This document shows, in pieces, positions 15,534 through 64,000 of a DNA stretch of 64,000 bases (its first letter is position 1; each line of letters opens with the position of its first letter). The stretch is taken from assembly GCA_028342535.1 (NCBI GenBank), contig JAOLWQ010000006.1:1-64000 (forward strand), in the 5' to 3' direction. The notes under the pieces are model-generated. The model saw nothing but the letters and a program-made list of their open reading frames with translations, was not told the origin of the DNA and ran no database searches. The DNA is from Methylophilaceae bacterium. Its GTDB lineage: Bacteria > Pseudomonadota > Gammaproteobacteria > Burkholderiales > Methylophilaceae. A program made the translations under genes and the position numbers.

Positions 15534-15570
15534 AAATTATTCTTTGCAATAAAGTAATTCTTTATAATTT

Positions 15571-52865: not shown

Positions 52866-52888
52866 ATTTAAATTTTATGTTTATAAAA

Positions 52889-52930
52889 AAAACCAGTCAT
52901 ATCTTTTAAAGAATAGACTGGTATAAAAAA
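52889..52930. terminator. Bidirectional terminator-like hairpin after ygfZ
   Basis: ACCAGTC (52892-52898) pairs with GACTGGT (52916-52922), with partial pairing of the inner TATCTT/AAGAATA. A-rich sequence lies on the left and AAAAAA/T-rich sequence to the right. It lies between the convergent ygfZ and the small Fur-box ORF and can serve both. Confidence 0.65.
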
Positions 52931-52959
52931 ATATTAGGAGTATTTTTTTATTTCTTGTT

Positions 52960-53160
52960 TTAATTACTTCTTTTTGATTTATGCTTTATCAAATCTAAAG
53001 CCGAACAAATTAAACCAAACCATTGGTGATATGCTTCCACATCCATTTCATTTTTTGTCATTTTCTCAGCCATAATGTCGAGATCATCAGTAACCTCTTT
53101 TACATACCTCTGAAGATATTCATTACTTTGTTGGCTTAATTGTATTTTTTTATTTAACAT
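52960..53160 (-). CDS. Small protein under a Fur-type promoter, unknown function
   Basis: A 66-residue ORF starting at the ATG at 53160 (MLNKKIQLSQQSNEYLQRYV). It is acidic and helical in the middle (KEVTDDLDIMAEKMTKNE) with a distinct YHQWFGLICSALDLIKHK C-terminal helix and basic end. It has no signal peptide or transmembrane segment. An in-frame ATG at 53190 would overlap the promoter, so the shorter start is preferred. There is no Shine-Dalgarno: the -10 element ends six bases before the ATG, predicting a leaderless transcript. I recognise no family. It is flanked by the ygfZ terminator and ftsB. Confidence 0.65.
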   Translation of the reverse strand: MLNKKIQLSQQSNEYLQRYVKEVTDDLDIMAEKMTKNEMDVEAYHQWFGLICSALDLIKHKSKRSN

Positions 53161-53166
53161 TTGGTA

Positions 53167-53195
53167 ATTGTAAATGAGAATCATTCGCATTGCAA
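53167..53195 (-). promoter_or_regulatory. Sigma-70 promoter with embedded Fur box
   Basis: On the minus strand, TTGCAA (53190-53195) and TACAAT (53167-53172) are spaced by exactly 17 bases. The spacer is filled by a Fur-type 7-1-7 site: plus-strand TGAGAAT-C-ATTCGCA (53175-53189), mismatching perfect symmetry at one position. The wider AATGAGAATCATTCGCATT resembles Fur boxes of proteobacterial iron genes. Bound Fur would block RNA polymerase directly, so iron limitation should induce the 66-residue ORF starting at 53160. Confidence 0.8.
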
Positions 53196-59035: not shown

Positions 59036-59251
59036 GAATTAAATCTCCTAAAATTTAATAAAAAAGTGTCCACAAAATCTGTGGATAACATTGTGAATTA
59101 ATGTTGTTTAAAAATGCAACCTATGAATTTTAAAGGTTTTTTTTTAAACGCTTAATTTTTAATCGTAAAAAAAACCTAATAAAATCAATGGGTTATTTTA
59201 TGTCATTGAGAATGCTCATCTTTTTCAAAATAGTTAAAGTAACGAATGAGG
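59036..59251. other. Longest non-coding gap: DnaA-box-like inverted pair and A/T hairpins
   Basis: TGTGGATAA at 59080-59088 is a perfect DnaA box (TTATCCACA on the minus strand). A near-copy, TGTCCACA, lies in opposite orientation just before it, so TCCACA (59069-59074) and TGTGGA (59080-59085) form a 6-bp stem. Further right, AGGTTTTTTTT (59134-59145) and AAAAAAAACCT (59167-59177) can form a long hairpin, perhaps a terminator for tatD. I see no gene here. Confidence 0.5.
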
Positions 59252-62825: not shown

Positions 62826-62939
62826 ATTAAATGGCAAATATTCCTAAATTTATATAGTTTTTTATTTTATCACGGCTAAGATTGTTTTTTTTGATTGTAG
62901 TTCCCAAAAAAACATTACGATACACTTTAACAGTTCCGT

Positions 62940-62971
62940 TATAATTTGATTAATGTAGTTTAAATATAGGA
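62940..62971 (+). promoter_or_regulatory. Promoter -10 and ribosome-binding site of iscX
   Basis: A consensus TATAAT lies at 62940-62945 with only a poor -35 candidate upstream. AGGA at 62968-62971 is seven bases from the iscX ATG. The region is divergent from glyA, so the same 140 bases must also contain the leftward glyA promoter. Confidence 0.45.
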
Positions 62972-62978
62972 AAATAAA

Positions 62979-63173
62979 ATGCTTTGGACAGATACTCTTG
63001 AAATTGCAGAAATACTTTATGACAATAACCCAGAAATTGATCCTAAGACAATAAGGTTTACAGATTTACGCCAATGGGTTTTAGATCTTGATAGTTTTGA
63101 TGACGACCCAAGCAAATGTGGGGAAAGAGTCTTGGAAGCAATACAGTTGGCATGGATAGATGAATACGAATAG
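62979..63173 (+). CDS. iscX: Iron-sulfur assembly protein IscX
   Basis: A 64-residue acidic protein that binds iron and the desulfurase IscS and modulates cluster assembly. The sequence closely follows E. coli Isc[35 protein letters not shown] and the acidic DSFDDDPSK with the C-terminal WIDEYE. In E. coli it ends the isc operon; here it stands alone and its last 14 bases overlap the phosphomannomutase gene. The remaining isc or suf genes are not in the window. Confidence 0.93.
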
Positions 63174-64000
63174 AGAACTTCCAGAAAAGAATATTTTTAA
63201 AGCTTATGACATTCGTGGGGTAGTTGGTAAAACTCTAAATGATAATTCAGTAATACAAATCGGCAAATCTATTGGGAGTGAAGCACTCCTTCAAAACCAA
63301 AAAGAAATTTATGTAGGTTACGATGGACGCCTTTCCAGTCCTAAGATGTATAAATTATTATCCAAAGGCTTGCTTTCTACCGGAATTAATGTGATTGCCA
63401 TTGGCTTGGTCACAACTCCTATGCTGTACTTCTGCACACATCAATACAATACACAATCTGGCATTATGATTACAGGCAGTCATAATCCTCCCGAATATAA
63501 CGGTTTTAAAATCGTAATCAATGACAAAGCTTTATCGAATGATGATATTCAAACTTTATACCAAAGAATTATCAACGAAGAATACTTGGTGGGTGATGGA
63601 AAAATAAGTAATTTAAATATCAAGCCTTCCTATCTTGAGAAAATTTATAATGATATAAAATTAGCAAGACCTATACGTATAGCGGTTGATTGTGGAAATG
63701 GTGCTGCGAGTGTTTGTGCTGAAGAATTATACAAAGGAATAGGCGCAATAGTGGAGCCACTTTTTTGTAACATTGATGGCAATTTTCCAAACCATCATCC
63801 AGACCCATCAAACTTAAATAATCTTATAAGCCTCCAAGAGGCCTTAGCTAATGGAAATAGTGAAATAGGGTTAGCATTTGATGGTGATGGTGATCGCTTA
63901 GGGGTAGTATCAAAAAAAGGAGAAGTCATATACCCAGACCGCCAGCTTTTATTATTTGCAGAAGATGTTTTAAAAAATAATCCAAATGCTTCAATAATAT
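63160..64000 (+). CDS. Phosphomannomutase/phosphoglucomutase, 3' part beyond window
   Basis: First 280 residues of an alpha-D-phosphohexomutase (ManB/AlgC type). The N-terminal [14 protein letters not shown], the catalytic phosphoserine loop [13 protein letters not shown] and the metal loop [12 protein letters not shown] are all present. It would convert mannose-6-P to mannose-1-P (and glucose phosphates) and so supply ManC, and possibly RfbA, of the polysaccharide operon. The ATG at 63160 lies inside the end of iscX, so the two are translationally coupled. Open to the last base of the window. Confidence 0.92.

Follow-up and report, generated by a model that had tools for sequence, protein, structure and literature searches.

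The window analysed here, the whole 64,000-nt stretch, belongs to a genome assembly of 1.19 Mb in 17 contigs and carries, between ftsB and ygfZ, a small gene on the minus strand (52960–53160; ATG at 53160, TAA at 52960) for an orphan protein of 66 aa. Ahead of this gene, on the same strand, the promoter scan placed a −35 hexamer, TTGCAA (53190–53195), and a −10 hexamer, TACAAT (53167–53172), which are separated by 17 nt and agree with the consensus at 9 of 12 positions. The spacer is occupied by a predicted Fur box (53173–53191; AATGCGAATGATTCTCATT when read on the minus strand), and its 7-1-7 core at 53175–53189, the 15-mer TGAGAATCATTCGCA on the plus strand, is a palindrome with one mismatch. 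Past the stop codon, an A/U hairpin with the loop CUCCUAA (52924–52950, minus strand) lies in the 3′ untranslated region, followed by an intrinsic-terminator-like hairpin (52885–52922, minus strand) with the stem ACCAGUC/GACUGGU at 52892–52922, then seven U at 52885–52891 (−12.3 kcal/mol, z −4.1). The preliminary description had reported a one-mismatch Fur-type palindrome filling a TTGCAA-17-TACAAT spacer and an ATG six bases past the −10 hexamer; the former was recovered on the minus strand and stands out from chance in pattern counts, and the latter holds to the base.

The hexamers alone are weak, with six promoter-like sites in 501 bp compared with a mean of 3.4 in shuffled sequences. The predicted Fur box exceeds chance expectation: the 19-mer pattern occurred exactly at 2 places in the 1,194,772 bases of the genome (0.0014 expected from base composition) and with at most one mismatch at 3 places (0.058 expected), part of this excess being post hoc because the degenerate pattern was derived from the window site itself, after that site had been seen. 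With at most one mismatch, the pattern was present in 28 of the 31 genomes of the genus, and its read-backwards control gave 0 in all 31. At three mismatches, 41 sites were found in the genome of the window compared with 30 in the control, and weak Fur-box sites therefore mean little.

Furthermore, we observed that a second genome, Methylophilaceae bacterium AH-578-O07 (L003), has at the corresponding location an identical 25-nt segment comprising the Fur box and the −10 hexamer, with TTGTAA as its −35 hexamer and an equal spacing between −10 and start codon (L079). The genome of the window holds one Fur-family place (PF01475, 150 bits), for which the nearest solved chains are Fur proteins. 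The shared box and −10, the Fur gene and a like promoter before the gene for the FTR1 iron permease support by comparison the Fur regulation that had been proposed, and from these features we infer Fur binding and iron induction at the window gene.

Between ftsB and ygfZ, L003 also carries an ORF 66% identical to that of the window. The two copies differ at 12/10/30 positions by codon position (pN/pS 0.255), and none of 2000 column shuffles gave a value as low; every comparison of the gene is pairwise because only two genomes carry it. This pN/pS is within the range of the neighbouring genes in the same genome pair (ygfZ 0.278, ftsB 0.169, eno 0.160 and kdsA 0.063). The constraint is concentrated in codons 20–66 (5/4/22), with codons 20–29 alone showing 2/1/6, and codons 2–19 are almost unconstrained (7/6/8, pN/pS 0.73). 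Codon-position constraint against the sister genome thus backs the earlier proposal of a 66-residue gene, and on this comparative evidence we take the ORF to be a real protein gene.

Could this gene be read from a leaderless mRNA? The −10 hexamer is followed by the ATG after six bases in both carriers, although the bases differ (TACCAA and ATAGTT), and the −10 element thus lies ~12 nt ahead of the start codon in both genomes. There is no ATG, GTG, TTG or CTG between M1 and M30 of the window gene (M29 in L003) and constraint is already visible at codons 20–29; therefore, translation begins either at M1 or within the Fur box. The simplest reading would be initiation at M1 on an mRNA with no leader or almost none, the exact 5′ end of which we infer from the promoter sequence. 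According to excerpts of PMC3160421, TANNNT about 12 bases before the start is a mark of leaderless (TA-led) bacterial genes. The window gene resembles these in having such a motif at that distance; it differs in that its 5′ end is predicted and that the 58 window ORFs of at least 120 aa give no general leaderless signal. Among these 58, −10-like hexamers were not enriched at the leaderless position (3 at offset 6 and 0–4 elsewhere, a window-only count of low power), and a Shine-Dalgarno-like motif preceded 16, compared with 3 at a control offset, so that many of the genes have none.

The feoA genes of the genus offer a comparison. Six of the 15 feoA loci have a Fur box that matches the pattern at 18 of 19 positions (L123–L128, at about 1460–1505), and their ATG lies 12, 13 or 16 bases past the box, each distance occurring at two loci. 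The other nine are without a box (best 12–14/19) and have lower PF04023 scores. In L123, the order TTGTAA-17-TAAAAT-6-ATG reproduces the geometry of the window gene, and in L125–L128 the −10 hexamers on the feoA strand are poor; the Fur-box feoA genes are possibly leaderless or very short-leadered, judging from these distances. The window gene is thus like the Fur-boxed feoA genes of its own genus in being a small gene with the box in the promoter spacer and, in L123, with the same geometry, but feoA encodes a known family (PF04023), to which the window protein has no match. The leaderless geometry that had been suggested is supported by this comparison, together with the six-base spacing kept in the sister. 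Matches to feoA and feoB occurred together in the same 15 of 31 genus genomes, and neither was found in the two carriers (93% and 81% complete), in which iron entry may rest on FTR1. The small protein was also considered as a FeoA substitute and given no membership: both feoA and feoB are without a match, and the protein is without a FeoA match.

Those same feoA distances bear on the possibility that the −10 hexamer is used but transcription starts a few bases off, giving a leader of 1–8 nt or placing the 5′ end slightly within the ORF. Since feoA starts at three distances from its box, the spacing evidently tolerates shifts. On the other hand, the six-base spacing is exact in both carriers even though the bases themselves have changed, and we consider a displaced start unlikely. 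Translation could also begin further upstream, as an in-frame ATG at 53190 lies inside the Fur box, the sequence of which itself spells ATG-CGA-ATG. Initiation at 53190 or 53184, on a transcript reading through from ftsB, would give the gene a leader and leave it under only partial Fur control. In both genomes the reading frame stays open upstream as far as the box, and this would yield MRMILIYN; however, this extension is spelled by the box itself, similar peptide starts occur at other Fur boxes (L067, L096 and L097), no Shine-Dalgarno sequence is visible ahead of the box ATGs, and the 25 nt are the same without a synonymous change, which fits constraint on the DNA. An upstream start is, in our judgement, quite improbable.

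The 3′ end raises another question, namely whether the RNA itself has a function. The terminator hairpin has a similar counterpart in L003 (−13.3 kcal/mol, z −3.4); terminator scans with a loop limit of 8 list none at the window gene. The 27 nt of the A/U hairpin are identical in the sister, where they begin with the stop codon, and fold as the same hairpin in both carriers (z −5.2 and −4.9 when taken with the terminator). One step further out, the window pairs A with U and L003 pairs C with G; both sides of the pair would have changed if these bases are homologous, the alignment having a gap there. The transcript might, then, be chiefly a Fur-repressed regulatory RNA (RyhB/FsrA-like), or have a dual function, with the CUCCUAA loop pairing to Shine-Dalgarno sequences. 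In favour of such a role are the short Fur-boxed unit with its terminator, the identical block and its shared hairpin with the A-U versus C-G outward pair, and the fact that an identical run of at least 25 was reached in only 43 of 5000 shuffles of the local alignment. Against it, long exact runs are common: runs of at least 27 shared with the sister genome occur in 7 of 25 noncoding window segments, the 3′ block included, one of these seven (62838–64000) probably being a cut-off gene and the long alignment to the sister beginning at 15555, so that earlier noncoding segments could not match.

Inexact near copies of the block number 24 in the genus (26 matches in all compared with 14 in the control); seven of the nine inspected lie in ORFs, and no Fur box occurs in any of the nine 3-kb loci, so that no Fur-linked second copy was seen among them. 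Rfam gave 0 covariance-model matches at gathering scores in the window, and the codon-position constraint shows a protein. A regulatory role of the transcript is possible but not likely, and as the main account of the locus we rate it very improbable. A pure sRNA was rejected because of the codon constraint on the frame. A leaderless, Fur-repressed transcript serving both purposes, that is, encoding a lineage-specific 66-aa iron-starvation protein and presenting CUCCUAA as an anti-Shine-Dalgarno seed loop, is just as doubtful; if true, it would mean that a single promoter equips a bacterium of small genome with a compact iron-sparing response.

How widely is the gene distributed? True matches were found in 2 of 101 relatives, 2 of the 31 genus genomes, 2 of 187 family genomes and, at the class level, 1 of 369 genomes (the window's own), many of these assemblies being incomplete. 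Short peptide patterns run against a collection of 84,980 species returned one locus, L003, in a search that could miss remote relatives, and viral contigs, phages and plasmids held no relative of the protein. A profile search of the genus gave 15 further weak matches (E 0.0155 and above), which are either short or fragments of longer frames, in part interrupted by stops; these were left out of the genus count, which remains 2 of 31, with several of the 29 genomes without a true match being incomplete.

We also read 29 ftsB loci, 27 of them besides the two carriers and 20 of these from the same genus. The gene search of the 29 returned only the carriers and a weak match in L015 (E 0.19), and no Fur box was found in the 320 nt past ftsB in the 20 same-genus non-carriers (best 10–14/19 compared with 16 in the carriers). 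Sixteen of the 20 have ygfZ next, in convergent orientation, and there no more than 88 nt separate the ftsB stop from the aligned end of ygfZ; the gap in the carriers is 350 bp (window) and 338 bp (L003). The ftsB sequences of the carriers are 80% identical to each other, and those of the other loci listed reach no more than 63%; the carriers therefore look like sister lineages, in which the unit was gained or outside which it was lost. Conservation in relatives, on which the preliminary description had staked its reading, thus holds in part: the Fur box and ORF are kept in one sister species, and 29 of the 31 genus genomes have no true match. By this distribution, the small gene is probably a lineage-restricted orphan in one branch of a Methylophilaceae genus. 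That it is a chance ORF beside a Fur box serving something else would suit a small orphan that has diverged more than the other four genes in the comparison, but purifying selection acts on the frame and the 20 same-genus loci without the ORF also have no box in the 320 nt past ftsB, so that we regard this as highly improbable.

We take the window to lie near OM43. Titles and abstract openings on iron, Fur and small proteins in Methylophilaceae and OM43 describe the gene nowhere among the matches listed, and no literature linking leaderless mRNA with Methylophilaceae was found. In the available text of PMC5120137, the transcript of a TonB-dependent siderophore receptor differs strongly between growth regimes in the OM43 strain NB0046.

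Which other genes have such promoters? In the genome of the window, boxes precede the genes for a 159-aa protein (L035, exact), a porin (L037, one mismatch) and, with two mismatches, the FTR1 iron permease (L039) and a ferritin-like protein (L041); among the five two-mismatch sites, only the last two precede iron genes. In other members of the genus, boxes lie, among the matches listed, before TonB-dependent receptors (L067 and L078; Pfam), ferritin-like genes (L115) and feoA, and several precede genes resembling the L037 porin; the only one of these searched against Pfam, L070, matched no family at E 0.001. The arrangement of a −35-like hexamer, a 17-nt spacer that is the box and a TANWAT hexamer recurs in 20 picked loci: 2 of 2 for the small gene, 8 of 8 for the 159-aa gene, 4 of 4 for FTR1 and 2 of 6 for feoA, the remaining four feoA loci passing only on the opposite strand. 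Separately, tandem Fur boxes starting 22–23 nt apart were seen in several relatives (L070, L071, L117 and others), some in divergent promoters, before outer-membrane-protein-like genes (labelled mostly by eye) and TonB-dependent receptors.

The 159-aa family, which in the genome of the window lies at L035:979–1458 (C2 near 33026), is an observation in its own right. Its genes follow a Fur promoter in eight or more genus genomes (the other loci being L081, L086, L087, L089, L111, L114 and L116), and its proteins have the recurring motifs W.LRH and EQH.LPD; one member gave no Pfam match at E 0.01 and two members gave no NCBIfam match at E 10. In L086, L087 and L114, the −35, box and −10 are the same as those of the sister's small gene, but the proteins show no similarity, and kinship of the 66-aa to the 159-aa protein was rejected on an hhalign probability of 0.2%. 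A profile search of 3087 frames of at least 40 aa from the collected loci returned only the copies of the small gene, the next match being at E 0.019. Capture of the promoter from the 159-aa gene was likewise set aside: the identity is no proof of capture because the shared stretch is nearly all motif.

What might the small protein do? The claim that it matches no family was confirmed in Pfam (0 at E 10), NCBIfam and PADLOC, with nothing convincing in PHROGs (one match, E 0.24), and among the sequences of solved structures the best chain had E 1.5. The protein has no proline, a basic tail and 10 K+R to 10 D+E (11 to 10 in the sister). Two stretches chosen by eye, at about residues 13–34 and 41–60, are amphipathic, with 12 and 45 of 2000 shuffles as amphipathic for the window protein and a modest 62 and 119 of 2000 for the sister. 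The most hydrophobic 18 residues (41–58) average 0.46 on the hydrophobicity scale applied (at most 0.33 in the sister), and the protein may contact the membrane. Our tentative guess is an adaptor-like helical hairpin that forms a dimer or binds to a partner protein. In excerpts of PMC7430163, FbpA, FbpB and FbpC of Bacillus subtilis are small, Fur-regulated proteins of an iron-sparing response, which the window protein resembles in size and in its predicted regulation. The Fbp proteins are, however, called basic there and act with the sRNA FsrA, whereas the window protein is charge-balanced, does not have the Fbp-type basic composition and is not known to work with an sRNA, a comparison by description and composition. 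By analogy, our best guess is that it would act as other small proteins under Fur control do, shifting metabolism when iron is low, without belonging to the Fbp group.

Taken as a whole, the observed sequence elements, sister-genome conservation and coding constraint are probably best explained by a Fur-repressed unit of one gene, leaderless or nearly so, for an iron-starvation protein. The gene would form a single-gene transcription unit between ftsB and ygfZ. When iron is sufficient, metal-bound Fur would occupy the box in the promoter spacer, blocking RNA polymerase; when iron is short, Fur would leave the box and transcription would begin on the A of the ATG at 53160 or no more than two bases away. 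The resulting mRNA of ~276 nt, leaderless or nearly so, would be translated from the very first codon, with no Shine-Dalgarno sequence, and would end past the hairpin at 52892–52922. Its 66-aa product, perhaps a helical hairpin as a dimer or bound to a partner, would tune metabolism to low iron.

If this is true, an orphan protein found in just two species is served by one of the two top-scoring Fur boxes (by a pattern taken from the window site) in a genome of ~1.2 Mb that encodes a single Fur protein and has few strong boxes. A lineage-specific gene would be wired directly into the iron regulon, and its small iron-starvation protein would have a findable partner. Fur-controlled small proteins are a kind already known; this one is lineage-restricted, and the window gene likely helps these bacteria, with their small genomes, to withstand a shortage of iron. 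Furthermore, in the Fur promoters of the genus, those of the small gene and of some feoA genes, the start codon is at or almost touching the expected start of transcription, which makes Fur-controlled leaderless translation testable in a small-genome bacterium.

Elsewhere in the window, at 59077–59178, two runs separated by a single base, 60 and 41 nt long, are identical to the sister and lie outside the simple-mask ORFs. The 60-nt run is the longest of its kind found; the region had no Rfam match at gathering scores and may contain a regulatory element or RNA that has escaped recognition.
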